IMG/VR virus record: IMGVR_UViG_3300045107_000625
Location: 1-35,630 of that record
From: a virus
Length of the DNA: 35,630 nucleotides
Reading direction: 5' to 3' (one strand)
Numbering within the stretch: the first letter of the stretch is position 1; every line of letters starts with the position of its first letter. The notes under the pieces were generated by a model. The model saw only the letters and a program-made list of their open reading frames with translations, did not search any database and was not told the origin of the DNA. This document shows, piece by piece, positions 5,245 to 32,118 of the stretch. Made by a program: the position numbers and the translations under genes.

Positions 5245-5255
5245 CCGGCGGGGGG
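5234..5255 (+). terminator. GC-rich hairpin over the stop codon of the second HTH gene
   Basis: CCCCCCGC (5234-5241) pairs with GCGGGGGG (5248-5255) around a six-base loop. No T-run follows; a Shine-Dalgarno (AAGGAGG-like) for the next gene comes directly after. It may attenuate the early transcript or separate regulatory from early genes. Confidence 0.4.
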
Positions 5256-5270
5256 AAGGAAGGAGACCAA

Positions 5271-10542: not shown

Positions 10543-10981
10543 GGCCGTAGCGCCCCGCCGGGGAGACGGGTTATGTAACCCAGCAACCGACGTGGGCGTT
10601 TTAATGGTTCCCGGACGAGTCCCCAAACACGGCAGTGTAGCCTGGCCCCGCTGGCGGGATGAGCTGCATTTTACCCTGGCAAAAAACAATATATCTCCCG
10701 TCGCCGAAAATCAGATACTGCACCTGCGGGCCGTATGCTACTACGGCTCAAATGGGCAATACACCACCCCTACCGAGTGGGCAGACCGTCTGGCTGTGCC
10801 TCAGATTGCCACGCTGACCGAAACCCTATTCCTGGCTTTGTTAAATCACCTTTACGTGCGCCGGGCTCAGGTCAACAGCCTGCATATTGAGCGTCACATT
10901 TGCCTCGAGCAGGAACTGCAAGCCCAGTTCGGCCCGGCCTGGGCTCGAGGGGGGTTGAGGCTAGAGTATGAAGCGACCTAA
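10529..10981 (+). CDS. Hypothetical protein (150 aa) before the terminase genes
   Basis: ATG 10529 follows GGAGGT closely and overlaps the nuclease gene; ATG 10604 (MVPGRVPKHG) is an alternative giving 125 residues. The body is helical with paired aromatic positions (AVCYYGSNGQYTTPTEWADRL). No family is recognised. The location just before small terminase suggests a late-gene regulator or packaging accessory, which is inference. The stretch between the two starts contains the palindrome GGGTTATGTAACCC (10568-10581). Confidence 0.6.
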   Translation: MLYTEAVAPRRGDGLCNPATDVGVLMVPGRVPKHGSVAWPRWRDELHFTLAKNNISPVAENQILHLRAVCYYGSNGQYTTPTEWADRLAVPQIATLTETLFLALLNHLYVRRAQVNSLHIERHICLEQELQAQFGPAWARGGLRLEYEAT

Positions 10982-15729: not shown

Positions 15730-15754
15730 TTGTGCTATAGTTAGTCTTGACACG

Positions 15755-15805
15755 CCCCTCCGGGGATTCGCAGCTTAAAAAGCTGCAACCGGAGGGGTTT
15801 CGTTT
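15755..15805 (+). terminator. Terminator-like hairpin whose 3' arm holds the next gene's Shine-Dalgarno (copy 1)
   Basis: The outer stem CCCCTCCGG (15755-15763) pairs with CCGGAGGGG (15789-15797); the inner stem GCAGCTT (15770-15776) pairs with AAGCTGC (15780-15786). TTTCGTTTTT follows, as in a Rho-independent terminator. GGAGGGG in the 3' arm lies eight bases before TTG 15806, the start of the capsid gene, so the ribosome site is locked in the stem. A second copy with the same outer stem and a different, still paired, inner stem is at 31407-31445. Confidence 0.8.
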
Positions 15806-18001
15806 TTGGCTAAGCCTGCTCAATCCAGCCGCATCCCGCTCCAACTGCGCCGATTGCGGGAGGGGGTAGTGCTGCTGCGGGCCAGCAACGACACCATCGC
15901 CGACAGCTATGGCACGACCATCACCGTCGAGGCCCTGATGCGCGACTGGTGGGAGGGCTACCGGCAGCACCGCACGGTCAGTTTGCAACACAATCTGCCC
16001 AGCCTGCGCGGCATCGCGGGTAAACCAATGGTGGGTGTGGCGACTCGAGTGGACTTCACCCCTCAGCTCGAGGTGGAGTTGCGCGTGCTCGACCCTGAGA
16101 CCCTGAGGCTGCTCGATGGGGGCCAGCTCAGCGGCGGCAGCCTGGAGTTCGTGGCTCTGGAGCAGCGCGCCCAGGTGGTAGGCGGGGTAGAAAGCCGGGT
16201 GTATTACCGACTCGCGGCTGAACCTGAGCTATGCGGTCTAAGCTTAGTGGACGAACCCGGCGTACCCGGCTCTGACGTACTGTCGCTGCGAGCGCTGCCG
16301 GGAAACTGGCAATTTGCGGTGGTAGATCCCAAGGCCCTCGAGGCTACCAGCCCAGCGGGCCTCGAGGGCTTGCGCTGGTTCGACCACCATGATCCCCAGA
16401 GCCACCTGGTGGATGAATCCAAATTGGCTTCAGCTCTGGCTGCACTCAGGGCGGGCGATTTTGTCGTGCCGCCAGAAGCCAGCCTGAGTCGTGAGGAGGT
16501 GGCGCGACGTGCGGCGGAGCACCTGCGTCGGCATACGGCAATCGGCATTGGAATGCGGGGGGAACCCGTCAAAGAGGTGAACGTGAATAAACAGCAGTGG
16601 TTAGAAGCACGCGCTAAGCAACTGGTTGCCGAGGGCGCAAACGAACCCGAAGCTATTACCAAAGCCCAGGCCGAGTACGACAAACTATCTCCCGACTTGC
16701 GGGCCAAAATCGAGGGTAGCGACAAAAAGGAGGCGGATTTCCAGATTGATATCAACTTTGATGTCAACACCGCCCAACCCCAGGCCCGCGCTGCTGCGCC
16801 TGCCACCCCAGCCAAACCCGCCGAGGCTGCGGTGCTCGAGGCCCGTTCCCGCGAGATTGCCCGTGAGGAAATGGCCCGTGTGATGGCGGATACTGCCGAA
16901 AACCCGATGGCCGCATTGGCCGCAGGTTTCGAGGTACGTAGCCGTAAACCCGACCTCGAGGGGGTACTGACTGAGATCATGGCGGCTATCGTCACCCCCT
17001 GGATGGAGCGGCGCAGCCACAGCAGCGACGAAATCCAACGAGCCTATAACATCCTGGCTCGCAATGGGATTGATAAACGCGCCCTGACCCTCGAGGCCAA
17101 CGGCGCGGTCATCTATTCCGACATCGCCCGGCAGTTCGCCATCAAGCCCCAGCCCGACATCATTGCCCGCAACCACTGGCCCAGTGTGCCGATGGGCGGG
17201 GTAAAGAAACGTACGTTCCCCCGGTTCGACCGGGCTGGTATTAGCCATTCCTGGAACCGCGTCAGCAACACCGCCATTGCTGAGAGCGACCCCACCCTGG
17301 ACAATTTTGTCGTCGAGGTAACTCAGCTCAACTCCAAGGTCACAGTGCCCGACGAGTTCCAACAGTTCAACGACCAAGGCCTATCGTTCGTGTCCTCGGT
17401 GCTGCTGCCTGCTATGCGCGCAGCTGCCCAGTACGAGGAAGACCGGCAGTTCTTCCTTTCGACTGGCATCGCCCCCGGCCCAACGACGTTCAACGGCCTG
17501 AAAACCCTGGCTACTGCCACCGTGGTAGCCCCATCCGCCAACGGCGATGCCTTTACCCAGGACATCCTGACCCGAATGCTGCGGGCGTTGCCGGTCAACT
17601 ATCGCAACGATACGTCTCGTCTGGCGTTTTATTTGCCGGTCAGCATCGGCGATGACTACGGCGACATCTTGGCGGCTCGGCAAACCCCTGGCGGCGATGC
17701 CTGGCTCCAGCGCTTCGCCAACCAGCCGGGGCCCATGCCCATCGGCGTACACCGTGGTGTTCCGATTTATACGGTGCCGCATTTGCCCACCAACGAGACC
17801 CAGGGCACCAGCACCAACGCGGCCACGTTGTACTTGGTGCACCGCGACATACCGGTCATCGGGGATGCGGTTACGCTGCGCATTGAACCGTACCGCCGCG
17901 AAAATTTCGTAGACGTGCTGCAACTCCAGGAGTTTGTGGGGCTGGGCTACCAGTGGCCTGAAGCCATCGTGCGCCGCCCCGGAGTACTGCCCAAAGTCTA
18001 A
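15806..18001 (+). CDS. Prohead protease-scaffold-major capsid protein fusion
   Basis: 731 residues in three parts. About 1-190 resembles a prohead protease (XkdF/S78-like), with H62 in LQHNL and a Ser-bearing LSGGSLEF (109-116). About 250-365 is charged and helical, like a scaffold or delta domain. About 370-731 is an HK97-type major capsid protein (for example RFDRAGISHSWNRVSNTAIAE, then QEFVGLGYQWPEA). Start TTG 15806 is served by GGAGGGG. An internal GTG 16583 with AAAGAGGTGA upstream could give a 472-residue scaffold-capsid product, a nested-start arrangement like lambda C/Nu3. Confidence 0.87.
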   Translation: MAKPAQSSRIPLQLRRLREGVVLLRASNDTIADSYGTTITVEALMRDWWEGYRQHRTVSLQHNLPSLRGIAGKPMVGVATRVDFTPQLEVELRVLDPETLRLLDGGQLSGGSLEFVALEQRAQVVGGVESRVYYRLAAEPELCGLSLVDEPGVPGSDVLSLRALPGNWQFAVVDPKALEATSPAGLEGLRWFDHHDPQSHLVDESKLASALAALRAGDFVVPPEASLSREEVARRAAEHLRRHTAIGIGMRGEPVKEVNVNKQQWLEARAKQLVAEGANEPEAITKAQAEYDKLSPDLRAKIEGSDKKEADFQIDINFDVNTAQPQARAAAPATPAKPAEAAVLEARSREIAREEMARVMADTAENPMAALAAGFEVRSRKPDLEGVLTEIMAAIVTPWMERRSHSSDEIQRAYNILARNGIDKRALTLEANGAVIYSDIARQFAIKPQPDIIARNHWPSVPMGGVKKRTFPRFDRAGISHSWNRVSNTAIAESDPTLDNFVVEVTQLNSKVTVPDEFQQFNDQGLSFVSSVLLPAMRAAAQYEEDRQFFLSTGIAPGPTTFNGLKTLATATVVAPSANGDAFTQDILTRMLRALPVNYRNDTSRLAFYLPVSIGDDYGDILAARQTPGGDAWLQRFANQPGPMPIGVHRGVPIYTVPHLPTNETQGTSTNAATLYLVHRDIPVIGDAVTLRIEPYRRENFVDVLQLQEFVGLGYQWPEAIVRRPGVLPKV

Positions 18002-18028
18002 TCCTAATCACGCTCCTCGGAAAAAAGT

Positions 18029-18244
18029 ATGGCTAAAACCGATAAAACCGAAACCACCGTCCTCGAGCCGCAGCCCGAAACCACCGAAACCACGGCAAAC
18101 ACGGTACGGGCCAAACTTGGCCCCAACGCTCCCGCCGGGCGGCTGTTGGTTGGTAATACCGTGTTGACCGCAGCCGAGGCCGCCGAGATTAGCGTTGAGG
18201 AATTCGAAGCGCTCAAAACCGAGTACGACCTGATCCAGGAGTGA
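18029..18244 (+). CDS. Small head protein, hypothetical (71 aa)
   Basis: It lies between the capsid fusion and the connector gene. The first 35 residues are a Thr/Glu-rich, probably disordered tail (KTDKTETTVLEPQPETTETT). The second half is compact: GRLLVGNTVLTAAEAAEISVEEFEALKTEYDL. Its size and position fit head-tail joining or capsid decoration proteins, but no family was recognised. The ribosome site is weak. Confidence 0.65.
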   Translation: MAKTDKTETTVLEPQPETTETTANTVRAKLGPNAPAGRLLVGNTVLTAAEAAEISVEEFEALKTEYDLIQE

Positions 18245-18245
18245 T

Positions 18246-18827
18246 GTGGGCTACCTCAGCACATACGCCGATTCCATTGGTTCCCTGGCTGGCTTCCCTG
18301 CCGATAAGGAGTCTCTGGCGTATGCCGAGGAGCTCATCAGCGCCTACACCGGCTGCTTGTTTGGCGTTGTTCCAACCCCATTCACCAGCAACATCCGCCT
18401 CGAGGCCGCATCCTATCAACTGCCGTTGCCGATTGACGTGCAGAGCGTGAACACTGCTACCGGAGTAGGCCAGGATGCAATTACCCAGGCAACTATAGTA
18501 ATGCCCGCCGCCGGTGTAACCCTCGGTTTGCGCCTCAGTCGCAACCTGCTATATGCCGAGGATGCCGATGGCCTCCCGTACCGTTTTGGCGCAGGGCTGT
18601 GGACGGTGGTAGGCACACGCGGTTATCCCAACGTGCCCGGCGCAATCATCAAGGCCGCGTCATTGCTGGTCGCGGCCTACCTCGAGCCTTCCGACCCCGA
18701 TCGCAGTAGGTTTGCCAACCTCAACCTAGGCGACTTTGGGGGCACCATGCGCCTGAGCGAGTTGCCCGTGCCCGAAGCCATGCAAATGCTCAACGCCTAC
18801 CGCAACCGGGTGCAGGTGTCTTTATGA
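18246..18827 (+). CDS. Head-tail connector (adaptor) protein
   Basis: 193 residues from GTG 18246, two bases after the previous stop. The N-terminal helices (SLAYAEELISAYTGCLFG) resemble gp6/gp15-type adaptors that dock under the portal. The rest has beta segments, then a helical end (IIKAASLLVAAYLEPSDPD and MQMLNAYRNRVQVSL). Gene order (capsid, connector, stopper, gp10-like, terminator) supports the assignment. It overlaps the next gene by four bases. Confidence 0.7.
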   Translation: MGYLSTYADSIGSLAGFPADKESLAYAEELISAYTGCLFGVVPTPFTSNIRLEAASYQLPLPIDVQSVNTATGVGQDAITQATIVMPAAGVTLGLRLSRNLLYAEDADGLPYRFGAGLWTVVGTRGYPNVPGAIIKAASLLVAAYLEPSDPDRSRFANLNLGDFGGTMRLSELPVPEAMQMLNAYRNRVQVSL

Positions 18828-19126
18828 AGGTAGTCGCCACCATCTACCAGTGCCAGGAAACCCTCGAGGCCGGGTTCCCCCACCCCGAGCAGGCCCGTCG
18901 CCGCGTGCTATACCAGGGGCCAGCTCATCTCAGTAGCCCCAATCAGGCCTGGCAGCGGGCTATCGCGCTGGACGGCAGCTACAGCGGCACGTTGTTGGTG
19001 CATGCCAACTGCTCGCTGCAAACGGCGGATGAAGTCTGTGTGGATTCGGAAACCTGGCGAGTGCTGACGGTGGCCCACAGTGCCAGGCAGTGGCGGCTCG
19101 AGCTGGCCCGAAAGGATGTGGCATAA
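18824..19126 (+). CDS. Probable head closure (stopper) protein (100 aa)
   Basis: A small beta-rich protein (ARRRVLYQGPAHLSSPN, then GTLLVHANCSLQTADEVCVDSETWRVLTV), matching in size and order the SPP1 gp16/HK97 gp-type closure proteins that seal the connector after packaging. ATG 18824 overlaps the upstream stop. The assignment is mainly from synteny. Confidence 0.65.
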   Translation: MKVVATIYQCQETLEAGFPHPEQARRRVLYQGPAHLSSPNQAWQRAIALDGSYSGTLLVHANCSLQTADEVCVDSETWRVLTVAHSARQWRLELARKDVA

Positions 19127-19333
19127 ATGGATGCAAGCCAGTTTTGGCTCGAACAGGCTCTGAAGCGCTTAGCAGCAGGCAGCCCTGATTTGAATGCCTT
19201 GGAGATCGAAATCAAATCGGCCTACGCCGCCCTGCTAAGCGAAGAGGACGAGGAAAACGACAGCGAGGAGGCCCCTATGGCGGTGGGCGACGGTCCCATG
19301 ATGCGCGTCAGCGTCAGTGGGCGGAGGAAATAA
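19127..19333 (+). CDS. Small acidic hypothetical protein (68 aa)
   Basis: ATG 19127 begins right after the previous stop and its own stop overlaps the next ATG. A helical N-terminus (DASQFWLEQALKRLAAGS) is followed by a very acidic patch (LLSEEDEENDSEEAP) and a basic end. No family is recognised. It belongs to the head-tail joining cluster. Confidence 0.65.
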   Translation: MDASQFWLEQALKRLAAGSPDLNALEIEIKSAYAALLSEEDEENDSEEAPMAVGDGPMMRVSVSGRRK

Positions 19334-19926
19334 TGCCCCTCGACCCGGCGACTCTGGCCCAGCTCCGGCGCAAACTGCGCGGCGGGCTGGTCGCTGTGGC
19401 TCAGGAGTTGGTCAACCAGGCCAAGGTCCGAGCTACGGCTCACGTAGATACCGGCGAGTTGCGCAATTCCATCACCTACTCAGAGATATCTGACGGCGTA
19501 CTATTTGGCCTACCCGACAGCCCCAAACACCGGGCCTTGGAGCTGGGCTTTGCCCCACACTGGGTTCCTGGCAAATACATCGGCGGCTGGATGGGGCGCA
19601 ACAATGTGGGCCAAATCTACCGCCGCTCGAGCCGTTCGGCAGGTAGCCGCCCCCGGCGCAGCAAACCACTCAAACGGGCAGTGGCAACGGCTACCGGGCT
19701 GTATGTGGGCGGCCCTAACTCCGTACTGGACTACGGGCCGGGCGGTACGTCGGGCATGAGGGTACGGGGCAAATCCCGCGTGTTCAAACGCTGGATGACC
19801 AAAGGGCAGCGCTCCGACGAACTGACTCCGGGCAAGGTGGGGTTCTCGGTGGTGCGCTGGACGGTGCACCACCGTCTGCGGGCCATAGCTGCTCAGGCGT
19901 TCGTGCAGGGGTATCGCAATGGCTAA
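19333..19926 (+). CDS. HK97 gp10-like head-tail joining protein
   Basis: 197 residues. The N-terminal part LVAVAQELVNQAKVRATAHVDTGELRNSITY is the hallmark of the gp10/minor tail Z family ('A-x-x-x-x-P/x-V-D-T-G-x-L-R-x-S'). The following stretch GGPNSVLDYGPGGTSG and a C-terminal helix also fit. Such proteins complete the neck in long-tailed phages. The usual family length is about 130-150, so an insertion (about 75-125, Arg/Ser-rich) makes this one longer. Confidence 0.8.
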   Translation: MPLDPATLAQLRRKLRGGLVAVAQELVNQAKVRATAHVDTGELRNSITYSEISDGVLFGLPDSPKHRALELGFAPHWVPGKYIGGWMGRNNVGQIYRRSSRSAGSRPRRSKPLKRAVATATGLYVGGPNSVLDYGPGGTSGMRVRGKSRVFKRWMTKGQRSDELTPGKVGFSVVRWTVHHRLRAIAAQAFVQGYRNG

Positions 19927-20335
19927 ATCTCAGGCCCTGCGAGAGCTGTATGCGGCCCTCGAGGGCTATCAGCCCCTGGTAGTCCTGACCGGGCACACCC
20001 CTGGGGCTACCAAACTGCCCGAGGCCCGCATCGTGGGCGATGCGGTGCGCCTGCGTCCACACCCCGTCCCCGGTCTAGTGCTGGGGCTAGGGGGCAAAAA
20101 CCAGGGCCGCACCCAGGCTGAGAAAGTTTGGGACGTGAGCCTGATGGTCTATGCGGCAGACGTGTTTGCCGCCGCCGATATCCTGGAAACCCTCGAGGCG
20201 TTCGCCCTTGATAGCCGCTGGACTACCTCCAGCATCCGCAAAGCAGAATGGCTCTCGAGCCAGCAAGTCGAGCTCGAGCCCGACCAGCAATACATCAGTT
20301 GCCAGGTGCTGCTGCGGCTGTACCTGGTGAGTTAG
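19919..20335 (+). CDS. Tail terminator protein
   Basis: 138 residues, overlapping the gp10-like gene by eight bases. The pattern of an N-terminal helix (ALRELYAALEGYQPLVVL), a middle strand region with EKVWDVSLMVYA, and a C-terminal strand (ISCQVLLRLYLVS) fits lambda U/SPP1 gp17-type terminators that cap the tail tube at the head side. Position between neck and major tail protein agrees. Confidence 0.7.
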   Translation: MAKSQALRELYAALEGYQPLVVLTGHTPGATKLPEARIVGDAVRLRPHPVPGLVLGLGGKNQGRTQAEKVWDVSLMVYAADVFAAADILETLEAFALDSRWTTSSIRKAEWLSSQQVELEPDQQYISCQVLLRLYLVS

Positions 20336-20343
20336 GAGGCAGC

Positions 20344-21132
20344 ATGGCAAGGTCGCTAGTAGATAAAACCAAAGTTGGATTTTCGGCGGGGGCTCGGATG
20401 TTCTGGGGGCCCTATGGCAGCACCGAGGCTGCCCTGCAACCGTTAGGGCTGCTGAGCGAGAACGCTACCCTCAACATCGGCCAGACCACCCGCCAGAAGT
20501 TCGACGGGCAGCCGAGACTGTTGGTGGTGCAGGCGATCCAGCAGCAAAGTGCCGAAATTCAGGCGGTAATCCACGAAATCACCAAAGACAATCTCAAACT
20601 GGCCTTGGGCCTGGACACTGCCGACCTGGTGGACACCGCCGGAGTAGACGTGGTGGTGACCAACGAGCAGGTAGTGCTCGACGCGAACGGCAACGGGATA
20701 CTGACTCACCCCATCAAGACCGGCAATGTTCCGGTGGTGACCAACGTGGGCGGGACCGTCACCTACGTGGCCGGGACCGATTACATCTTCATCCCCCGCG
20801 ACCAGTTTGGCCGCAGCGTAATCTACCGGCTTTCCACTGGGGCCATCCCCGCTCAGGCCACCCTCGAGGTGGACTACACCTATACCCCCAACGTGCGCAC
20901 CGAGTTCCCAGTGGGTCAGCGCACCACCATCGTCGAGCGGATGTTCAAAGTCGAGGAAGAATATACCGACGGACGCAAATTGATTGCGCTGCTGTACCGG
21001 GCTAATATCACCGTCAACGGCAACATCACCGTCAACGCTGGGAACGACCAGGGCATGAGCATACCGCTCAAGATAGACGGACTATACGACTCCACCAAAA
21101 ACAAAATCGTCTCAGTGTTCCTCGAGGGTTAG
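20344..21132 (+). CDS. Major tail (tube) protein with an inserted beta domain
   Basis: 262 residues; ATG 20344 follows TTAGGAGGCAGC. The N-terminal (GARMFWGPYGSTEAALQPLGLLSENATLNIG) and C-terminal (VEEEYTDGRKLIALLYRANI) parts fit tail-tube subunits. Between them, residues about 130-183 (GGTVTYVAGTDYIF and ATLEVDYTYTP) form a module that also occurs in the hub protein at about 745-805 (SGTVTYQAGVDYLF, ATIKVSYRYK). It would stack in rings to form the tail tube; the insert probably decorates its outside. Confidence 0.8.
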   Translation: MARSLVDKTKVGFSAGARMFWGPYGSTEAALQPLGLLSENATLNIGQTTRQKFDGQPRLLVVQAIQQQSAEIQAVIHEITKDNLKLALGLDTADLVDTAGVDVVVTNEQVVLDANGNGILTHPIKTGNVPVVTNVGGTVTYVAGTDYIFIPRDQFGRSVIYRLSTGAIPAQATLEVDYTYTPNVRTEFPVGQRTTIVERMFKVEEEYTDGRKLIALLYRANITVNGNITVNAGNDQGMSIPLKIDGLYDSTKNKIVSVFLEG

Positions 21133-21137
21133 TTGCA

Positions 21138-21617
21138 ATGGCCTCTAAAACCCAGATTGAACTGGAAACCTTACGCCGCCAGGTGGCTGACCTCGAGGTG
21201 CGCTTGGCGGCCCTACAACCTACCCCCGGTTTGTCGGGGGCACAAAAGCCGTGGACGGTACAGGTAGGTGGCGAGCCGGTAGCGCTGCGAGCCCTGACCG
21301 AATCGCAGTGGGTCGCTGCGCTAGGCGAATTGCCCGCGTTTCTGCTGACCTACATTGCCGGTAAGCAGTCGGGCAATAGCGATGACCCCGAGCTGCTGGG
21401 TAAAATCCGCCTAACCGCCCAAACCTGGATTGTGGCCTGTGCTCTCAAACCCGACGAGCTGCGCCTGGAGCGCCTGACTATCCCTGAGGCGGTGGAGGCG
21501 GTGAGGGTCATTGCGGCCTTGAACGGCGTTGACCAGGCGCTGGCCCAGTTTTTTCGAGAACGACTCCTCGGCCATGCTGCTCGACCAGGCGGCGCGGCGA
21601 TACGGAACACGGCCTAG
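21138..21617 (+). CDS. Tail assembly chaperone, short (G-like) product
   Basis: 159 residues, located between tail tube and tape measure, where long-tailed phages encode the chaperone pair. The sequence VGGEPVALRALTESQWVAALGELPAF is typical of chaperone N-termini. The six-T run 21549-21554, in codons CAG TTT TTT CGA, marks where ribosomes could shift into the frame ending at 21768. A 51-bp part (21237-21287) is identical to part of the replication gene at 9473. The N-terminal helix (LETLRRQVADLEVRLAAL) looks like an added coiled coil. Confidence 0.75.
   Translation: MASKTQIELETLRRQVADLEVRLAALQPTPGLSGAQKPWTVQVGGEPVALRALTESQWVAALGELPAFLLTYIAGKQSGNSDDPELLGKIRLTAQTWIVACALKPDELRLERLTIPEAVEAVRVIAALNGVDQALAQFFRERLLGHAARPGGAAIRNTA
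21237..21287. repeat. 51-bp perfect repeat, copy in the tail chaperone gene
   Basis: Identical to 9866-9916. Here the encoded GAQKPWTVQVGGEPVAL continues smoothly into a chaperone-like sequence, so this is the more likely original location. Confidence 0.9.
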
Positions 21618-21768
21618 CGCCTTGCTGGGCATTGCGAGCACCCGCACCGCCCTGGCCTTCGACCTGGCGCTGGCCCAAAAAGCTGCGCTGCATGACCTCG
21701 AGCATCAATCCGGCGAGTTCTGGTGGATACCGTTAGTGCAACTGGCCAAGGGGTTTATGAATGGCTGA
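21550..21768 (+). CDS. Tail assembly chaperone, frameshift extension (GT-like)
   Basis: This frame has no good start of its own (ATG 21574 lacks a ribosome site) but stays open from the T-run at 21549 to 21768. A +1 or -2 shift there would give an about 209-residue fusion continuing FFENDSSAMLLDQAARRYG. The segment LLDQAARRYGTRPSALLGI and the later QSGEFWWIPLVQ are typical of chaperone T domains. Such frameshifts are conserved in long-tailed phages, usually -1; Mu uses -2. The stop overlaps the next ATG. Confidence 0.7.
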   Translation, partial: FFENDSSAMLLDQAARRYGTRPSALLGIASTRTALAFDLALAQKAALHDLEHQSGEFWWIPLVQLAKGFMNG

Positions 21769-21952
21769 GCCAATCCAAAGCGTAGAAGCCGAATACCTCG
21801 AGGAGGCCGGGGTATTCGTGTTCATATTGTCCAACGGACAAAAAATCGGGGTTAGCGCTACCGGATTATATCGCCTGGGCAGCCTCGAAGGTAAAAGCTG
21901 GTCCGAGCTGCTCGAGGAACTGCCCAACACGCCGGTAAAACTTTATGGCTGA
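21761..21952 (+). CDS. Hypothetical small protein before the tape measure (63 aa)
   Basis: ATG 21761 overlaps the end of the chaperone frame; its stop overlaps the tape-measure ATG. It has strands EYLEEAGVFVFILSNGQKIGVSATGLYRL followed by an acidic helix (SWSELLEELP). The overlaps on both sides argue that it is a real coupled gene. The function is unknown. Confidence 0.65.
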   Translation: MAEPIQSVEAEYLEEAGVFVFILSNGQKIGVSATGLYRLGSLEGKSWSELLEELPNTPVKLYG

Positions 21953-24900
21953 GCAGCTTAGCCTGGGCGACTTGACCTGGAAACTCGGGTTCGACTCCGA
22001 GGATCAGTTCCTGTCCGCACTGAACGAGTTATTCGCTAAGGCCGAGGCCAAGGCCAAATCCGGCGGGGCGGTGGGGGGGGAAGAGTTTGGCAAAGCGTTT
22101 ACCGCCAAGGCCAAACAGAGCGCCTCAGGTTTTGGCGATGACTTTATCCGCTCGCTGGGTATCCAAACACTGGGCACGTTTCTAGGCCAGGCCCTGCAAA
22201 CCGCATTCCAGAGCGCAATATCGGCTACGCAGCAATTCGTGAGTGACTCTAACCGCGAGTTTCGCAGCTATCAAATCAATTTGAACACCATCGCTACCAA
22301 CACCAACGAATCGCTAGATAAAATCAAAGCCGGTATCAAAAGCATTTCCGACGAGAGCCGGGTTTTTAGTGAGGTCGAGGTTTCTCGCGGGGTAGCCGAG
22401 CTAATCAAGGCTGGTTATGACGCTAGCACCGCGCTCAACATTGTCAGCAAATCGGCCAACCTCGCCAAAAGCGAAATCAACGACCTCACTGGGCAATATG
22501 CTGACCTGGGAGGAGTTTCCAAACAAGTATCAGATGTAATGGCGGGATTTGGTATTCAGACTGGCGACGTGGCTCGAGTGGTAGATGTGCTGGCAAAAGG
22601 GGCGGCGCAGTCTAAGCTGGGCATCACCGACCTGGTGGAGGCCATCGCACCCATCGGGTCGTTTGCCAAAAACGCGGGCTTGAGCCTCGAGGAAACCGTT
22701 TCAGCCATCGCTCAGCTCAAAAACACGGGTTTGCCTGCAGCCGAGGCCGCTACTGCGCTACGCACGGTGTTGCAACAGTTAATTACGCCTCCGCAGAACG
22801 TCAAGAAAGCGTTTGACGAGCTGGGGCTGACGCTGATAAAAGCCGACGGCACCTTGCGACCTTTTCCGGAAATACTGGCTAATATCCAGCGTGTCGCCGA
22901 AAGCGGCGGTAGAGGAGTACAACTGCTGTCGTATGGGCTAGGTACGTACGGAAACAACGCCGCACAGGCGCTAGGAAAAGCTCAACAGGCCACCAAAGAT
23001 TTTTCGATTGAACTGCAAAATTCGGCTGGATATGCTCAACAATACGCAGACTCGCTCAATAAAGGCATCATCTCCGGGGCCGATTTTGACCGGCAAATAG
23101 CCAACGCCAAGCGGGCGCTGGGCGAACAGCTCAAGCCGGTTCTGCTCGATCTATATACCAACATCCTGCCGCCATTTATCCGGCTAATCCAGGATGCTGC
23201 TCCTTTGCTCGAGCGCTTAGCAAGCGCAATTGATAACATTGGAAAACCTACGTTTAAACCCGGAGCAAAAGATGCCCTCGAGGCCCTCTACACCGATGCT
23301 GACAAAGCCGATGTAGCTTTGACTCGTATTGCGGACAACCAGAAAAAACTCGACTTGGCTCGAGAAAAATTGTCTACCGCGACCGCAGTACCAGCGGTAA
23401 CGCTAGCCGCTAATTTACAAATTGACGCCACCAAAAAGGAAATCGCGAACCTCGAGCAGGCTATTGCTGCCGATCAAAAAATCTTAGATGGGCTCAAACG
23501 TCAGGCCGCCGAAAGCAGCCAAGCCGTTGCCACAACTCCCAACAAACCCACATCCACCGCTGACCCCAGCGCATTTACTGTAGGCCGAGGCAATCCCTCT
23601 GGCCGTTCCCGCACCCCTAAAGACCCCATCCTCGAGCAGGCTCAGGAGCTGGACAAAAACTTACGCCTGCTCGAGACGCGCTTTACCTTGGGGCAGGTGC
23701 CTCTGGAGAAATATCAGGCTGAACTCTCCACGCTCGAGGGCCGCTTCCAAACCCTGGGTAAATCCGCCCGCAGCACCGACCAACAGCTTGCGGTGGCCGA
23801 AGGCTTGAAGGCGGTACAGGCTGCGCGGGAAAAGCAGGACAAGCTCGACCAGGAAGCCAGGGCCAAAGCAGCCCAATCCGAGGTAGACCAGGCCCGGTGG
23901 GTAGCCGAGCAGAAAACCGAATCCTACAAACTAGCCTACGAAGCCGAAAAACAATATCAGGACGAACTGGATAGGCAAAAAGCCCAAGCTGTGCAGACCG
24001 ATTTTGAGCGGGCACGGGATGTAGCAAGCGCTCAGGCCGCCAGTTTCCAGAAGGCCCTTGACGACAAAGCCAAGCTAGTGGACACCACCAACGATGTGGA
24101 GGGTCTTGAGGCCCTCAAAGCCTTTTACGAAAACTTGGGCCTGACCGGCGAAGCGGCCTACCAGCGCATACTGACCAAGCTGGACGAGTTATACACCTTC
24201 CAGAAGCAATTTGGGGCGGAATCGGCCAAAAACCGAGAGGCCAACATTTTGGCCTCGGATAAAACTTTGCAGCAGCAGTTGTTCGATGCTCGCCAGGTTG
24301 CAGCCAGCTTTGCCGAAAACCCAAAGCTGTTTACCCAGGCCGACCTGGACAAAACCTCTCAAGCCATAGACCTACTCGAGCTGTACGGTCAGGACGTGGG
24401 CCACCTGCGCGAACTGCTGGGGCAGGCCACTACCGAGTTCGTGCAGATGAGCAACGCGGCCAGCGGAGTGTTTAGCGACCAGGCTCCGGTGCAGGACTAC
24501 ATCAACAATTTCGACAAGCTGGTTTTGCAGCTCAAAACCGGTGAAACCACCAGTGCGGAATTTAGAGCCCAGGCCGAGGCCATCATTGCGCAGCTCGATA
24601 AATACGCTGCTATTGCCGCTTCCAACGGTGACTTTACCTTGTTCGATGCAGCCAACAAAGCTGCCGATGCCCTGTTTACTCGCCTGAACGACATTATCGG
24701 CCTGGGCAAAACTGCCGTCAAAGGGCCGGATAATACCGTCCTGGGCAAGTTGCCGGAGGACCTTAAAGCGGCTGGGGACGATGTAGGCGAACTCGAGGGC
24801 AAGGTCAACTCGCTGATAGTAGCTCTGAACAACGCGCCTACCGACCCGCTCGAGCTGGAAGCCTTTGCCAACGAGGTCAACACCCAGATGTTTGCCCTGT

Positions 24901-25640: not shown

Positions 25641-25677
25641 GTATCGCCACGCGCCGGGCCGCAGGAGCAGCTTGACT

Positions 25678-26100
25678 ATGAGCCTATACACCCCAATCAC
25701 GGTCACCCCGGTCGCTCCGGCAGGGTCCGCGGTGACCCTGCCGATGCCGGAGAGTGTGCAATTCCAGGGGAGTAGCAGCATCAGCTTCGTTTTCAAGGAC
25801 CCCTGGCCGAGCACCGACCTCCAGGCCCTGCTGAAGCCGGTGCTCTCCCAGCCTGCCGAAAAAATCCTCACCGGTCGGACCCTCCTGAACAAGCAATACG
25901 CCATCGTCAGCCCCCCCGGAGTGTTGGTAGACCTGACCTGGGGGGAGGCTGAGCCGTTTGACGGAGGGACCATCGCCCACGCGGCTCGGGGCGTGCTGGC
26001 CTTGCCCACGGGGGGCTACGACCGCAGCAGCCGCACCTTCAACGTAGTGCTGTACGCCTGCAGCGTGGCCTTTTTGTGGGGCGGGGGGAGCCTGAGCTAA
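25678..26100 (+). CDS. Distal tail protein, hypothetical (140 aa)
   Basis: ATG 25678, or TTG 25672, which is closer to the AGGAG at 25663-25667. A beta-rich protein (TPITVTPVAPAGSAVTLPMPESVQFQGSSSISFVF, then RTFNVVLYACSVAFLWGGGSL). It lies between tape measure and hub, where distal tail (Dit-like) proteins are found. It is shorter than usual Dit proteins. The assignment is from position only. Its stop overlaps the start of the next gene. Confidence 0.6.
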   Translation: MSLYTPITVTPVAPAGSAVTLPMPESVQFQGSSSISFVFKDPWPSTDLQALLKPVLSQPAEKILTGRTLLNKQYAIVSPPGVLVDLTWGEAEPFDGGTIAHAARGVLALPTGGYDRSSRTFNVVLYACSVAFLWGGGSLS

Positions 26101-29100
26101 TGCCACTCGATCCATCTGGCCGCCACTCGATTGGCCCGGCAATTGACCCTAATCTAGTGGGGCCGGACCTGACCCTTCCGCCCAGCGACATCACCGACGG
26201 GCGCACGGACGCCACTCTGCTGGCCCCTAGCGATCCGACCCGGCCCGAGCGCTGGATTACGGTGACCCCAGGCAGCCTCTATTTCGACGACCTGGACCGC
26301 CTGTTAGCTCGAATCTTCTGGTCGCCTGAGGGGGGGCTGGGGGCTCAGTGGGTGTATCACACCCCTAGCGGCTGGTCGTGCAGTGCGGCTCAGACACTAT
26401 ATGCCGCCAGCCGTTTCGCGCGGGCAGCATTGGTCGATGCAGTCGAAAGCCCCCTTTGGGTCTATCCTCTGCAAGCGGTCACCGGCGTGACCTTGGTGGT
26501 GGGGCCGGGCAGCCGCGATGCTGGGGGGACGGAAGTAGGATTTATCGTCGAGAGCTGGGGACTCCGATACAACGGGCTGCATGACTACGCCTGGAAGCGC
26601 CAAAACGATGCTCAATCCGAAGAGCGCATCCTGCCGCTGCCTGGGGGGGTATCTGCCTCGGATTTGCTGAGCAGCGTTGCCTTGGTTACCGTAGACCGCA
26701 ACGGCCCGCTGGCCTGGGAGCGGGCTGTGGTGTACGCCACCTCGAGCAACATCTACGTGCAACTGCTGTTGCAAACCTACGACACGCCCGGCTTGCCCTC
26801 CCCGCTACAGCTCACCGGGACTCCGATCGCCGTGACCAAACCCAGTGATCTCAGTGTCGTCGAAACGGTCTTGGCTCGCGAAATCGGCGTCAATGTGGTG
26901 GCCACAGATAACACTGGATTTTTTGGCCTGGCCGTGCAGGGGCGAACCGGCGGCGGTGCGAGCGCGACCTGGGGGTTTGTGGTCGCGGTGGCTGCGAGCG
27001 GAGGCTATGGGTATAGCCTGTCGGCGCAGGGCAGGATGCTCGAGAGCGGAACGCTGGCCCCGTTGTGGATTATCCCGGATTACGCGCAGGTAATCCCCGG
27101 CGGCTACGGCGGGGCGGCAGCATTTGGGCTTGGCGTAGGGCTGACCGGCACGGATACGATTGCCGAGCTATATTGGGAGTACGTCGGCGGCACCCTGAGC
27201 CTGTTACCCAGCGCGAATAGCACATTGCTCAGCGGCATGACCGCACACGGTCCAGATACTCCGCTCGCGTATTTAAATCGCGGCCTTGAGGCCGCATCGC
27301 TATATTTCAACGACCTCGCGTATACCGCGGCGATGCCGTACTGGACCAACGACCCCTATAACACGTATATCGGGTTGTTCTCCCCGCCTGGCAGCGACGA
27401 GGCCCAGGCGAGGAGCACTCTGCTGGTCACGGTATACCCCAGCGGCAGGGCCCTGGATTTGATCCCAACGGGGCCAAATCGAGTCCTGGTTCCTATTCTG
27501 ACCTCGAGATCGCTCACCCTGCGCGAATTGGAGTGGACTGCGCTTCCCCCGCCCGCACCCAGCTACCAGGACCGCGTTCGTCTGACCATTTCCAAACAAG
27601 CCTCGAACGTGGGCCGCAGCGGAGCCATTCAGTTCGCCGACTACGCCCTCTCGCTCACGGTGACCCCGGACGTACGCCTCGAGGCCGGCAGCGCCCAAGT
27701 CATCGGCCACGCCCTGGACCCGGCCACCCCGGCGCTGAGCTATTACGTCAAATCCATCTCAGAGGATAACGGGCTCCTGACCTATACCGGGGAGACCATC
27801 CTGGCCCGGATGGCCAGAGAACGCCCAGACGATTTCGTAGCTCAAGGGCCGTTCACCGGCAAACAGGCGTTGGAAACCATCCTGACCCACTGGGCCGCCA
27901 AATATACCTGGCTGCAATGGGACGAGCTGCCCGAGTTCTACCTCTCCGGCGATACCCAGATGCCGATGTTCCCGGGGCTAATCCTGCTCAACGCTCAGGA
28001 TGGCGATGGGCGGGTGACCAGCCGCAAAACCATGCGGCAGTGGCTCGAGGACTACTTCAAAGTCTTTGAGGGGTACACGTTCCAGGCTGCGGCCACCGGC
28101 AAGCTGCGGGTAGTGCCCCCGCCTTGGTTAGACGCTTCGCCTCGGGTGACCCTGACCCAGGACGACTTTTTGCAAATTGCCGAAGGCACGGACACCGAAA
28201 GCATTCGCAACCTGGCCGTTGTGACCAGCCAGGGGCTGGAGTTCCCCTCCGGCGAGGTAGAGGTGGTGGACGAACCCTACACCTATCCCGGCACCGGCCC
28301 CGGCGGGGCCATCGTGATGAACCACGAGGTTTCCCCGGGCACCACCATCACGGTCAAGGATGTTTCGGGGACGGTGACCTACCAAGCGGGGGTGGACTAT
28401 CTGTTTTACAACCCCGGCTCAACCGGGCATAGCGAAATCCAGCGGCTGCCCTCCGGCGGGATCGGGGCCAGCGCCACCATCAAAGTCAGCTACCGCTACA
28501 AAGCCACCTTGCCCGATGTGATGGTTCCGTCAGGATTTGCCTTGTGGGGCCGCATCCAGGCCCTGAACAACTTCGTGCCCTGGGGGCCCAAGCCCGCCGA
28601 CCTGACCCTGGACTACAAACCCCTGGGGCCCACCACCGCGAGCGGGGGCTACGCCCAGCCGCCGATCCTGGACCTGAACAACAGCGGCACCCTGATCACC
28701 TACTCGCCCTCGAAGTGGCCGCTGCAGGAAAACATCCTCCTGACCGGGGACTCCATTGAGGTGCGCTGGAACGTCAAGGACTGGCTCTCGCAGTGGCAGA
28801 CCGGCGATATCGGCCCCTATGACAACCCCGGCAGGGGCACCTTGCCACTGGACAATCAGGAGCACCTGCTGGGCATCACCGTGTTCACCGCCCCGGGAAC
28901 GGATAATTTCAGCCCGCAGCAGGCCAAGATGTGGCTCTGGGGCCAGTGGGCCGGCGACGGGATATTCCTGCGGGCCCAGGTCTGGCTGGCCGATCAAAAA
29001 ATTCCCCCGCCGCTCGCCACCGGCATCTGGGTCCACGGCATCTGGGTGCAACTGAACGGCAGCGGGCGCAAGCTGCAAAAATCCAGCCGTACCTACATCG

Positions 29101-30608
29101 GGCGCTATACCGAAAATGATATCGACCTCCCGGGCGTGGTGGAGAGCCGGGCCGCGTTCGGCCCGCGGGAGGAAAGCTTTGACACCGGGCTGCTCTCTAT
29201 CCCGGATGATGCGTTATTGGCTCGAATCGCTCGAGCCAAGGTCTTGGAGCGGCTCAACCCGGCCCAGATCGTGGTGGCCCAGATCGCCCCGCCGTTTCGG
29301 GTGGGGATGGAAGACATCGGCAGGGAGTTCATTCTGCCCGCTCCGAGCGGCGGGACCCGAAAGGGAATCCTCGAGAGTTTGGACTACTCCGAGACCCACG
29401 AGAGCGGCGGGAGCGCCCTCAGCCTCACCGCCCGCTTCCGGGTGACCGAGAGCTTGCTGGCCGGGCAGGGGGGCAGCAGTTGGGTGGGGATCAGCACGTA
29501 CGGCCAAGCCTACTACACCGGCGGAGTTTTTGCCGCGAACTCTGGCGGCGGGGTGGGCGGCTCGCCCGGCGGCGGTAGCGGCGGCGGCGGGCCCACTTTA
29601 CCCAGCGGCTTCCCGCCCACCGCCTTCCACTGGATGGGCACCCAGAACCTCAGCCCGCAGGACGTATTTTCCAACCCGAGCTACTATCAAAATTTGCCCT
29701 TCAACTCCTTCATCGTCAACACTGACGAGAGCTGGAGCCTGCTGCTAGGAAACTCGATCCGCTCCAAAAGCCAAATTGTGAACGAGCTGGTCCAGCTGCA
29801 AGCGGCCCTGCCGGGGCGGGGAATCATCGTGATTTTGCACAAGCAGGCCCCGCCGCCCTCGTTCCTCTTCGACGACGCCGCCTGGGGCCGGATATGCGCC
29901 AACGGCGCGGTGTGGGCGGCGGCCCTCGAGGAGGCCAAATCCAAAGGCGTGAACGTGATGGCGGCGGTTGACCCTGAGGGCAACGTCAGCGACTGGGGGC
30001 ACTACGGCGACGCCAGCAAAGCCGCCCAGCGGGGCAGTCAGTTCGCAACCGCAGTCCACCCGGTCTCTATCAGTTTGCGCTGGTTGTGGCTGCACGGGCT
30101 TTACAACGGGATCACCGGCATCCCCCCGGAAGTGGTCGGGCAAGTCAGCATCCCCGGGTGGACCCCCGACCCGGTCGCCGCTCAGACCGGCGGGGGCTTC
30201 CGTGCCCAGGCTGCCTTCCAGGGCCAGTTCATCGCGGGCGGCATTGGGATCAAACCCCGGCGCTGGGCCATCAATGGCGTCGAGGTCTACCAGCTCCGCA
30301 CCCACGCCCATTTCGTCCGCACGTTGACCTACATGCGCCAGCTCGGGCAGATCATCTCCGACCCGCTGATCCTGCCTCCGGCTCTGGCCGGCAACTACAC
30401 CGACTGGGTCGCCACCGGGGCCAGCGTGAGCATCACCACCGGCACCGGCCCGCTGCCAGTAGATCCCACCAGCATGAACCAGGCCCTGAACAACGCGCTG
30501 GTGACCGCCGATAGCGACGCGATCGTGTGGTGCTACGCGGAGGCTGAGCCCTCGAGCGCGGTCTACGCAGCCTGGGCCGCGGCCATCGCCGATCCCCACG
30601 AAGTTTAG
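26100..30608 (+). CDS. Giant tail hub/tip protein with C-terminal TIM-barrel-like hydrolase domain (1502 aa)
   Basis: Residues about 1-490 are beta-rich with no family recognised. About 490-1120 looks like a hub/central-fibre region (VRLTISKQASNVGRSGAIQ, TGKQALETILTHWAAKYTWL), including the 745-805 beta module shared with the tail tube protein. A Gly/Ser linker (about 1149-1165) then leads to a separate domain (about 1175-1500). That domain has FHWMGTQNLSP, GRGIIVILHKQ, VNVMAAVDPEGNVSDWG and VEVYQLRTHAHF, a periodic strand-helix pattern suggesting a glycosidase-like barrel. It probably contacts and opens the cell surface. The enzyme activity is inference. Confidence 0.75.
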   Translation: MPLDPSGRHSIGPAIDPNLVGPDLTLPPSDITDGRTDATLLAPSDPTRPERWITVTPGSLYFDDLDRLLARIFWSPEGGLGAQWVYHTPSGWSCSAAQTLYAASRFARAALVDAVESPLWVYPLQAVTGVTLVVGPGSRDAGGTEVGFIVESWGLRYNGLHDYAWKRQNDAQSEERILPLPGGVSASDLLSSVALVTVDRNGPLAWERAVVYATSSNIYVQLLLQTYDTPGLPSPLQLTGTPIAVTKPSDLSVVETVLAREIGVNVVATDNTGFFGLAVQGRTGGGASATWGFVVAVAASGGYGYSLSAQGRMLESGTLAPLWIIPDYAQVIPGGYGGAAAFGLGVGLTGTDTIAELYWEYVGGTLSLLPSANSTLLSGMTAHGPDTPLAYLNRGLEAASLYFNDLAYTAAMPYWTNDPYNTYIGLFSPPGSDEAQARSTLLVTVYPSGRALDLIPTGPNRVLVPILTSRSLTLRELEWTALPPPAPSYQDRVRLTISKQASNVGRSGAIQFADYALSLTVTPDVRLEAGSAQVIGHALDPATPALSYYVKSISEDNGLLTYTGETILARMARERPDDFVAQGPFTGKQALETILTHWAAKYTWLQWDELPEFYLSGDTQMPMFPGLILLNAQDGDGRVTSRKTMRQWLEDYFKVFEGYTFQAAATGKLRVVPPPWLDASPRVTLTQDDFLQIAEGTDTESIRNLAVVTSQGLEFPSGEVEVVDEPYTYPGTGPGGAIVMNHEVSPGTTITVKDVSGTVTYQAGVDYLFYNPGSTGHSEIQRLPSGGIGASATIKVSYRYKATLPDVMVPSGFALWGRIQALNNFVPWGPKPADLTLDYKPLGPTTASGGYAQPPILDLNNSGTLITYSPSKWPLQENILLTGDSIEVRWNVKDWLSQWQTGDIGPYDNPGRGTLPLDNQEHLLGITVFTAPGTDNFSPQQAKMWLWGQWAGDGIFLRAQVWLADQKIPPPLATGIWVHGIWVQLNGSGRKLQKSSRTYIGRYTENDIDLPGVVESRAAFGPREESFDTGLLSIPDDALLARIARAKVLERLNPAQIVVAQIAPPFRVGMEDIGREFILPAPSGGTRKGILESLDYSETHESGGSALSLTARFRVTESLLAGQGGSSWVGISTYGQAYYTGGVFAANSGGGVGGSPGGGSGGGGPTLPSGFPPTAFHWMGTQNLSPQDVFSNPSYYQNLPFNSFIVNTDESWSLLLGNSIRSKSQIVNELVQLQAALPGRGIIVILHKQAPPPSFLFDDAAWGRICANGAVWAAALEEAKSKGVNVMAAVDPEGNVSDWGHYGDASKAAQRGSQFATAVHPVSISLRWLWLHGLYNGITGIPPEVVGQVSIPGWTPDPVAAQTGGGFRAQAAFQGQFIAGGIGIKPRRWAINGVEVYQLRTHAHFVRTLTYMRQLGQIISDPLILPPALAGNYTDWVATGASVSITTGTGPLPVDPTSMNQALNNALVTADSDAIVWCYAEAEPSSAVYAAWAAAIADPHEV

Positions 30609-30616
30609 GAGGATTT

Positions 30617-31396
30617 ATGATTAATCCCTGGTACAAGCTCTTGACGGCCCAGCCCGCGAACAGCGGGGGCCGGCGGCGCATCCTCGAGGTCCACCTCGAC
30701 AGCCCGCTGGGGGCCCTGGCCGAAGGGTTGGAAAACCTGGCCCTGGCGGTTTTCAGCGCCGGGGGCGTGATGGCGGCGGGGACAGTGAGCGTTTCGGGGA
30801 CGGTGCTCTCGGTGAGCGCGCGGCTGGGGATCACCCTGGACGGCTCGGCAGCCCTGGCCTCCGGCGGGCAGACCCTGGACCTGTTCTCGGTACCGGAGAA
30901 CAACCGGATTCGGGCCTACCTGCAGGCCGCGCCAATCCCCCAGGATACCGTGATCATTGATCCTGACACCAGCCAAACCCTGACCCACACCACCTATTTG
31001 CGGCTGGGCAAACTGGCCTTCGCCCAGGGGGCGACCCTGCCCGACGTACCCACCAACGCGGTCCCGGTGGCGAAACTGACCCGGGTACCTGGCGGGGTCA
31101 CGCTGGACGAGGTTGAAACTCCTGGACCCAAACTGCGAAAGGTGCTCGAGGGCTCGGCCCCCCTGGATTTTCCCAGCATCCCCGCCGGGGGCATCGCCAC
31201 CCTGACCATGGCTATAGCCGGAGCCCAACCTGGCTCTGAGGTGCTGCTGGGCGCACCGGCCAGTCTCGAGGCGGGCCTGCTGGCCTTCGGCCTGGTCACA
31301 GCCGCCGATACGGTCACGGTGCGCCTGTACAACTCCACTGCAGCCGCGGTTGACCCCGCTCCGGCTACCTGGAAAGCCTCAGTGCTGGTACACTAA
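30617..31396 (+). CDS. Tail protein, hypothetical (259 aa)
   Basis: ATG 30617 follows TAGGAGGATTT, a strong ribosome site. The N-terminal part is helical; the middle is beta-rich (VSVSGTVLSVSARLGITLDGSAAL). The C-terminal 90 residues (IPAGGIATLTMAIAGAQPGSEVLLGAP, then DTVTVRLYNSTAAAVDPA) form a jelly-roll-like repeat found at the end of many phage tip or fibre proteins. It is probably a structural tail protein near the tip. A terminator-like hairpin follows directly. Confidence 0.65.
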   Translation: MINPWYKLLTAQPANSGGRRRILEVHLDSPLGALAEGLENLALAVFSAGGVMAAGTVSVSGTVLSVSARLGITLDGSAALASGGQTLDLFSVPENNRIRAYLQAAPIPQDTVIIDPDTSQTLTHTTYLRLGKLAFAQGATLPDVPTNAVPVAKLTRVPGGVTLDEVETPGPKLRKVLEGSAPLDFPSIPAGGIATLTMAIAGAQPGSEVLLGAPASLEAGLLAFGLVTAADTVTVRLYNSTAAAVDPAPATWKASVLVH

Positions 31397-31406
31397 TCCT
31401 GAAACG

Positions 31407-31445
31407 CCCCTCCGGGGATTGGTAGCCAGGCTACCGCCGGAGGGG
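31407..31445 (+). terminator. Terminator-like hairpin with embedded Shine-Dalgarno (copy 2)
   Basis: The outer stem CCCCTCCGG (31407-31415) / CCGGAGGGG (31437-31445) is identical to copy 1 at 15755. The inner stem GGTAG/CTACC (31421-31435) differs in sequence but pairs too. TTTTACG follows and the lysozyme gene starts at TTG 31453, seven bases after the buried GGAGGGG. The sequence just upstream is also alike in the two copies. Confidence 0.8.
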
Positions 31446-31452
31446 TTTTACG

Positions 31453-32118
31453 TTGCGCCACCCCAATCAATTCGAAGAAGCTGACCTGGCCGAACTGGTT
31501 GGGGCCGAGAAAGCTGCCCTGTACTACCCGCACCTGCTCGAGGGCTTCCGCACCTATGGCCTGATTAATGCCCGCCGTCAAGCCCACTTTTTGGCCCAGG
31601 CGCTGGCCGAGACTGGCGGATTCAGCCACCTCGAGGAATCCCTCAGCTATTCCCCGCTGCGCCTAACCCAGGTCTGGCCTGGCCGCTTCCCCACCATAGC
31701 GGCCGCCGAGCCCTATGCCTTTGCGCCGGAGAAACTCGCCAACCTGGTATACGCCAACCGCATGGGCAACGGCGGCCCCGAAAGCGGCGACGGTTGGCGT
31801 TACCGGGGGCGGGGGCTAATCCAGCTGACCGGGCGCAATAACTACGTCGGGGCCACCCTCAGCCTCAATGCGCGGTTTGAGGGTGCTCCCGACCTCATCA
31901 GCTTCCCCGAGCGGCTGCTCGAGCCGCGCTGGGCGGCTATCAGCGCCTGCGACTACTGGGCGCGGGCACGCTACATGGGGCTGTCGCTGTCGTGGTGGGC
32001 CGACCGCAACAGCCTCGAGATGGTCACCCGGGGGGTCAACGGCGGCTTGATTGGCCTCAACCTCCGGGCGGCCTGGTTAGCCAAGGCCCAGGTGGTCTTG
32101 GCCAAAGGAGCGGTATGA
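31453..32118 (+). CDS. Endolysin, GH19 chitinase-like lysozyme
   Basis: 221 residues from TTG 31453, the only start that keeps the N-terminal helices. The pattern HFLAQALAETGGFSHLEESL (catalytic Glu about 53, second acidic pair 61-62) and GDGWRYRGRGLIQLTGRNNY (112-131) is the GH19 signature of phage endolysins, which cut the peptidoglycan glycan chain. No signal peptide is seen, so release needs the adjacent holin. The Shine-Dalgarno is inside the preceding hairpin, which may delay synthesis. It overlaps the holin gene by four bases. Confidence 0.93.
   Translation: MRHPNQFEEADLAELVGAEKAALYYPHLLEGFRTYGLINARRQAHFLAQALAETGGFSHLEESLSYSPLRLTQVWPGRFPTIAAAEPYAFAPEKLANLVYANRMGNGGPESGDGWRYRGRGLIQLTGRNNYVGATLSLNARFEGAPDLISFPERLLEPRWAAISACDYWARARYMGLSLSWWADRNSLEMVTRGVNGGLIGLNLRAAWLAKAQVVLAKGAV

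Follow-up and report, generated by a model that had tools for sequence, protein, structure and literature searches.

In phage T4, genes e, soc, 49, and I-TevI carry hairpins that sequester the Shine-Dalgarno (SD) sequence (PMC3014915). Lambda Q acts by antitermination at the late promoter (PMC6606751), and AlpA provides terminator bypass at lysis genes (PMC7969949). The put RNA of phage HK022 forms tandem leader hairpins (PMC9378689), and the Thermus phage P23-45 has extended -10 late promoters together with a protein, gp39, that favors the extended -10 element and is an antiterminator (PMC7403470). Here, we analyze a leader cassette that stands before the capsid fusion gene and the endolysin gene in IMG/VR virus record IMGVR_UViG_3300045107_000625 (positions 1 to 35,630; this whole stretch of 35,630 nucleotides [nt] is referred to as the window). 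The cassette consists of a predicted promoter, a hairpin of about 45 nt with the SD sequence in its 3' arm, a U-rich stretch, and a TTG start codon, and it was found in 11 copies in 7 related tailed phages.

The leader cassette in the window and in related phages

The outer stem CCCCTCCGG/CCGGAGGGG occurs in the window at two places only, 15755-15763/15789-15797 (copy a) and 31407-31415/31437-31445 (copy b), which confirms the two sites noticed in the original prediction, made from the sequence alone. In isolation, copy a folds at -30.4 kcal/mol (z = -5.0) and copy b at -30.2 kcal/mol (z = -3.7), and none of 200 shuffled sequences was equally stable in either case. The apical stems, GCAGCTT/AAGCTGC in copy a and TGGTAGC/GCTACCG in copy b, are unlike each other in sequence and both pair. 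In both copies, the SD sequence GGAGGGG lies 7 to 8 nt 5' of a TTG, the earliest start codon in frame, a T-rich tract trails the hairpin, and a short CCCC-TCC-GGGG mini-hairpin overlaps the 5' arm of the long one.

The outer stem alone is not rare. The pattern CCCCTCCGG-N-CCGGAGGGG was widely matched in viral and bacterial collections, among the matches listed, and the bare stem was dropped as a diagnostic pattern because it is far too common there. With a stem so widespread among bacterial hairpins, context and relatives have to carry the argument. Three viral records of 6 to 7 kb (L004, L012, and L044) contain two to three CCCCTCCGG/CCGGAGGGG hairpins each; none was matched by the covariance model described below (R1), and these hairpins are thus unrelated to the leader cassette.

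Scans with the head morphogenesis protein and capsid alignments gave six related viral records (L242/G001, L325/G002, L326/G003, L327/G004, L328/G005, and L353), so that the sample comprises seven phages whose seven capsid copies are orthologous to one another. Capsid protein identity to the relatives is about 56 to 63% in the closer ones and 50% in L353. The cassette precedes the capsid gene in all seven phages, with the capsid TTG at the same place in each. At this junction, all six relatives have TGCTATA[AG]T or TGCTACACT, followed at 10 to 13 nt by a hairpin, an SD sequence in its 3' arm, and TTG. Genome scans place the cassette before the endolysin gene as well in all four long records (the window, G001, G002, and G004), and a TTG start follows in 11/11 copies. 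The endolysins behind it belong to three unrelated families, namely, a lysozyme in the window and G004 (52 to 53% identity), an Amidase_3 protein in G002, and a PHROG 465 endolysin in G001, which indicates that the cassette stayed where it was as one endolysin gene replaced another behind it.

The complete cassette was seen in this phage family only. A broader pattern of promoter plus mini-hairpin, run on viral contigs, returned 17 stretches, among which a long hairpin with SD sequence and TTG was present only in members of this family. Three other loci found with the pattern (L355 4272-4304, minus strand; L357 7410-7442, plus strand; L363 3089-3121, minus strand) have GTGCTACAGT, a C5/G5 mini-hairpin, a free AGGAGG, and ATG; these are promoter and mini-hairpin combinations without an SD-hiding arm and may be chance occurrences. 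Searches of the phage and plasmid collections with the DNA and with the capsid protein found no close relative. Rfam gave nothing above the gathering threshold in the window and, for the stretch of copy a, matches no better than chance.

Each hairpin is preceded by a -10-like promoter element, which the original prediction had missed along with the mini-hairpin, the two window copies themselves being correctly recognized. The element lies 12 to 13 nt 5' of the CCCC of the stem in both window copies and 10 to 13 nt 5' of it in 11/11 copies. An extended -10 (TGC or TGG joined to TATAAT, TATAGT, or TACACT) is found in 10 of the 11 a and b copies, and G004b has TTG-TAAAAT. In copy b, the final T of the element is the first base of the TAA stop of the upstream gene. 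No consistent -35 element was found in a scan of the copies (none is recognizable for copy a), and comparison of the a and b copies upstream of the cassette gave no conserved block besides GTGC; the -10-like element and its spacing are kept in all copies, and the remaining upstream sequence is not. The promoter and the RNA start are predictions from sequence. The RNA should start 7 to 8 bases past the -10, about 4 nt before the hairpin, with predicted 5' ends of GACAC-stem and GAAAC-stem in the window copies (about 15748-15749 for copy a); across the whole set, the predicted start precedes the stem by 3 to 5 nt (AGAC-stem, GACAC-stem, or GAAAC-stem). The presence of such an element just 5' of each hairpin suggests that transcripts of the downstream operon probably begin with the hairpin. 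The gene upstream of copy a ends 238 nt before the hairpin, and the gene upstream of copy b ends about 10 nt before the stem.

Selection on RNA structure and predicted competing folds

When each copy is folded alone, the architecture of outer plus apical stem is present in 11/11 copies. The CCCC and the GGGG of the SD sequence are invariant, and the latter is paired in every copy. The flanking pairs vary with pairing kept: UA, GC, AU, and GU at position -1; UA, CG, and UG at 4; CG, UA, and UG at 5; five types at 6; and GC and CG at 7. In an arm-swap test, in which 3' arms were reassigned among the copies (20,000 permutations), pairing of the hairpins' own arms surpassed almost all permutations both for the outer stem (P = 2.5e-4) and for the apical stem (P = 5e-5). 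MAFFT misaligned some apical stems, and the conclusions rest on per-copy folding and the arm-swap test instead. A pair count based on the MAFFT alignment agrees in direction and is weakened by this misalignment, since sliding one column gives an equal covariation score with fewer cells paired. Covariance model R1 was built from the 11 copies and recovers them, by construction, at 55 to 78 bits; the best score among 98 unrelated loci (0.88 Mb) was 25 bits. The original prediction had taken the differing but pairing inner stems as a sign of selection on RNA structure and had proposed a search for covariation in relatives as a check. The compensatory changes in 11 copies from seven related phages bear this out. 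The buried SD sequence and the TTG start that it described are likewise present in every copy.

A second GGGG (GGG in G005) follows the CCCC at a distance of 3 to 6 nt in all copies, the arrangement being CCCC-N3..5-GGGG in 10 of the 11 and CCC/GGG in the remaining one. The role of this near GGGG in the long hairpin varies, and it is half unpaired in the two window copies and in G002b. Because the CCCC has both the near GGGG and the 3'-arm GGGG as partners, two pairings compete, of which the one that frees the SD sequence would be made first. In computed folds, RNA ended before the 3' arm forms a tandem pair of hairpins, one from CCCC-GGGG and one from the apical stem (state B), in 11/11 copies, and with the 3' arm included the long form (state A) is favored by 7 to 13 kcal/mol at 65°C. 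Thus, the leader looks like a two-state element in these calculations, and the transient tandem form may matter.

Immediately 3' of the stem, U makes up on average 74% of the first nucleotides (up to 8) in the 11 copies. The T-rich tract described in the original prediction is present in both window copies and in 10/11 copies overall, and L353 has CGTCCC instead, so that termination cannot define the element in every phage.

The two leaders of one phage are 66% similar, compared with 53% for orthologous capsid copies, and the within-phage pairing is the best of 24 label permutations. This is as expected from a shared trans-acting factor or from gene conversion or sequence exchange. In G004 (L327 3922-4003; L344 3269-3351, minus strand), the capsid and endolysin leaders have the same apical stem-loop, GCTCGTAAGAGC, with differing outer stems, which suggests intragenomic exchange or one binder for both.

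Table 1. Positions of the cassette elements and associated genes in the window
Feature	Position	Strand	Basis
Copy a, extended -10 element TGC-TATAGT (TGCTATAGT)	15733..15741	+	Sequence; equally spaced in relatives
Copy a, long hairpin (state A)	15754..15798	+	Outer stem 15754-15763/15789-15798, apical stem 15770-15776/15780-15786; fold and compensatory changes
Copy a, mini-hairpin CCCC-TCC-GGGG (state B), excludes outer stem	15755..15765	+	Motif and truncated-RNA folds
Copy a, SD sequence GGAGGGG within 3' arm	15791..15797	+	Sequence; GGGG paired in 11/11 copies
Copy a, U-rich tract	15798..15807	+	Sequence; T-rich stretch after hairpin
Capsid fusion gene, 731 amino acids, TTG start	15806..18001	+	PHROG 1623; virion structural protein match in the C-terminal part
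Copy b, extended -10 element TGG-TACACT (TGGTACACT)	31386..31394	+	Sequence; TACACT also in G002b and L353
Copy b, long hairpin	31406..31446	+	Outer stem 31406-31415/31437-31446, apical stem 31420-31426/31430-31436; fold and compensatory changes
Copy b, mini-hairpin CCCC-TCC-GGGG	31407..31417	+	Per-copy folds
Copy b, SD sequence GGAGGGG within 3' arm	31439..31445	+	Sequence
Endolysin gene (lysozyme type), TTG start	31453..32118	+	PHROG 181 (E 2.8e-60); PDB 9ms6 (E 1e-33); start aligns with G004 orthologue
Copy c (tentative)	10529..10606	+	TACACT 10535, mini-hairpin CCCC-GCC-GGGG 10553-10563, imperfect long hairpin, ATG 10604

It is possible, though tentative, that a degenerate third copy of the cassette (copy c) starts the packaging operon. 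It overlaps the coding start (M-x-Y-T-E-S-x-H-P-x-x-G-E-T) of a small gene that precedes terL by two genes, at the head of that operon, and has counterparts in relatives (G001 11635; G002 13108), the stretches concerned being L323 11629-11710, L342 13103-13190, and L345 about 1235-1306 (minus strand). Model R1 matches the counterparts in G001 (E = 3.5e-4) and G002 (E = 0.065) and gives no match at the window copy c site, even with filters off; in G004, only the CCCC-GGGG mini-hairpin is kept, with no long hairpin. Because copy c lies in protein-coding sequence, its conservation is not independent evidence.

Proposed function and alternative explanations

We give an even chance to a role as an attenuator and translation lock, that is, a leader cassette of late operons. 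An extended -10 promoter would start the RNA about 4 nt before the long hairpin, the 3' arm of which would carry the SD sequence of the TTG-started gene (capsid fusion or endolysin). As the RNA emerged, the CCCC would pair first with the near GGGG to give the two tandem hairpins of state B, with the distal arm free; on emergence of the 3' arm, the CCCC would switch to it, forming state A and burying the SD sequence. State A, together with the U-tract where present, would look like an intrinsic terminator placed some 50 nt past the promoter. Leaky endolysin and capsid expression would be held low in the lysogen and in early infection, and late release would come from a factor or from co-transcriptional kinetics that keep state B or modify RNA polymerase. 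Sequestration of the SD sequence is what varies least among the leaders. The temperate gene layout and the greater likeness of the two leaders within one phage fit this role, and its parts have precedents in P23-45, AlpA, lambda Q, T4 e and soc, and HK022 put. The promoter-like element, the hairpin, SD sequestration, TTG, covariation, and distribution over two operons are supported by the compared genomes, and the RNA start and the exchange from state B to state A are predicted. We infer the OFF function, termination, and the release factor. For the original prediction, this means that sequestration of the SD sequence holds in all copies, with the lowered translation that it proposed being our inference as well, and that a terminator between modules is plausible in most copies but would not be the primary role, since the leader is predicted to head the downstream operon. 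A wider version, which we regard as possible but doubtful, sees a two-state nascent-RNA switch in every late operon, in which the tandem form, with RNA polymerase or a phage factor attached to it, would permit transcription and translation and the long hairpin would terminate transcription and hide the SD sequence.

Several points weigh against the attenuator and lock. Capsid protein is needed in quantity, and a lock on its gene would be odd unless release were efficient. The absence of a U-tract in L353 means that termination is not the conserved function there. In thermodynamic terms, state A is by far the more stable of the two, so that any switch must be kinetic or factor driven, and no candidate late regulator or cognate release factor was identified. 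No gp39 or gp76 homologue was found in these phages, and the P23-45 genome has no R1 match and no such element.

The leader might instead be a 5'-terminal mRNA stabilizer of the ompA type, in which a stem-loop within about 5 nt of the 5' end guards abundant late mRNAs from 5'-end-dependent decay; SD sequestration would then be a side effect or be beaten by ribosomes loading during RNA synthesis. The predicted RNA starts 3 to 5 nt before the stem in all copies would suit this role, late mRNAs would profit from it, and 5'-terminal stem-loops are known to stabilize transcripts (Emory 1992 and Bouvet 1992, as cited in PMC3997798). However, the U-tract, the TTG starts, and the conserved competing GGGG would be left unexplained. 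Stabilizers of this type need no SD sequence in the stem, yet its placement here is invariant, and we consider the explanation a serious contender with a minority chance of being right. An unlikely alternative is a readthrough silencer in the style of T4 genes e and soc, whereby only transcripts derived from upstream would hold the full hairpin and be silenced, and the late RNA would begin within or after the 5' arm and be translated freely. The gene types (lysozyme e and soc) and the SD sequestration are the same in T4 (PMC3014915), and the upstream gene ends just about 10 nt before the copy b stem; however, the position of the -10-like element in every copy predicts an RNA start before the 5' arm.

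The GC-rich stem with a U-tract in 10/11 copies, and the occurrence of the same stem sequence in many bacteria among the matches listed, would also fit an ordinary intrinsic terminator of the upstream module, with the SD sequence of the next gene reused from the stem for compactness and the -10-like sequences incidental. The distance of 238 nt between the preceding gene and copy a, the conservation of the -10-like element and its spacing amid otherwise unconserved upstream sequence, and the lack of a U-tract in L353 make this quite improbable. Only a slim chance is left to a DNA operator, in which the CCCC-N-GGGG palindrome past the RNA start would be the site for a phage late regulator and RNA folding would be secondary: the palindrome is present in 11/11 copies (CCC/GGG in one) and in all four tentative c copies, including G004c, and the within-genome similarity of leaders suggests a common trans factor, but operator half-sites are fixed in spacing, whereas the spacer here ranges from 3 to 6 nt, and covariation of the arms extends through the entire hairpin. 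The RNA thermosensor raised in the original prediction is scarcely credible. It would account for an SD sequence in a hairpin of a phage with a possibly thermophilic host, but the GC-rich stems are nearly perfect and stay folded at 65 to 75°C in calculation, with no more than 5% opening of the SD sequence at 65°C and no more than 8% at 70°C (92% or more paired at the higher temperature).

The timing of late genes in these phages appears to depend on a single cassette used repeatedly, not on signals particular to each operon, which suggests that temperate phages may have a late switch at the RNA level. Covariance model R1 can be used to find related phages, and the leader, if it is a tight off-switch, could be useful for expression control at high temperature.

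Gene context and comparison with known systems

The gene set in the window is of the temperate type, with an integrase, an S24-type repressor, and RecT-like and O-like replication genes, and the phage is apparently temperate. The 731-amino-acid protein encoded at 15806-18001 joins a long N-terminal part to a capsid-like C terminus, and this fused head protein is kept in relatives. Inside the O-like replication gene, an array of repeated inverted units (TCACTGCGGAAACCCGCAGT) at 8802-8999 probably represents origin iterons. CTCGAG is strongly overrepresented, with 113 occurrences in the window compared with 8.7 expected for a random equal-base sequence and 78 to 111 in three long relatives. On the minus strand, window positions 5225-5290 and G001 positions 3794-3885 contain a very stable C-rich hairpin (CCCCCCGCCGGCTAGCGGGGGG; CCCCCGGCCCCCGCCGGGGG); that of G001 stands at a distance after TGCTATACT. 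This hairpin is possibly a separate leader or terminator on that strand.

The cassette would share with the Q and AlpA systems the placement of lysis or late genes behind a promoter and then a terminator-like hairpin, both predicted here. It differs in that a scan of some of the window proteins against Pfam and PHROGs gave no match resembling Q or AlpA, and no binding element for either was found. In addition, the hairpin begins some 5 nt past the predicted RNA start and has the SD sequence inside it, with an extended -10 and no -35. Two tandem stem-loops also form in HK022 put RNA, and putL, like these leaders, lies just 3' of its promoter. Antitermination by put needs no protein and involves binding to the zinc-binding domain of RNA polymerase beta'. 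However, put is about 70 nt long and stands at the front of early operons, with distant terminators as its targets, whereas the tandem form here would be transient and smaller and is predicted only for RNA ended before the 3' arm. P23-45 differs in having gp39 and gp76, of which no homologue was found here, and in lacking an R1 match; it resembles these phages in its extended -10 late promoters, and its phage factor joins extended -10 preference to antitermination. The ompA-type stabilizers have in common with the predicted leader RNAs a stem-loop a few nt from the RNA 5' end (references in PMC3997798).

The closest translational precedent is found in the T4 e and soc hairpins. There, too, lysozyme and capsid-related genes have an SD sequence buried in a hairpin with a promoter nearby, and premature lysis is avoided. 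The statement in the original prediction that no phage element of this form was described therefore needs to be narrowed, as SD-sequestering hairpins precede T4 genes e, soc, 49, and I-TevI (PMC3014915). What remains distinct is that RNA from the T4 late promoters lacks the 5' arm, whereas the leaders here are predicted to carry the whole hairpin, and that one cassette stands before two operons, with TTG, a U-tract, and an alternative mini-hairpin.

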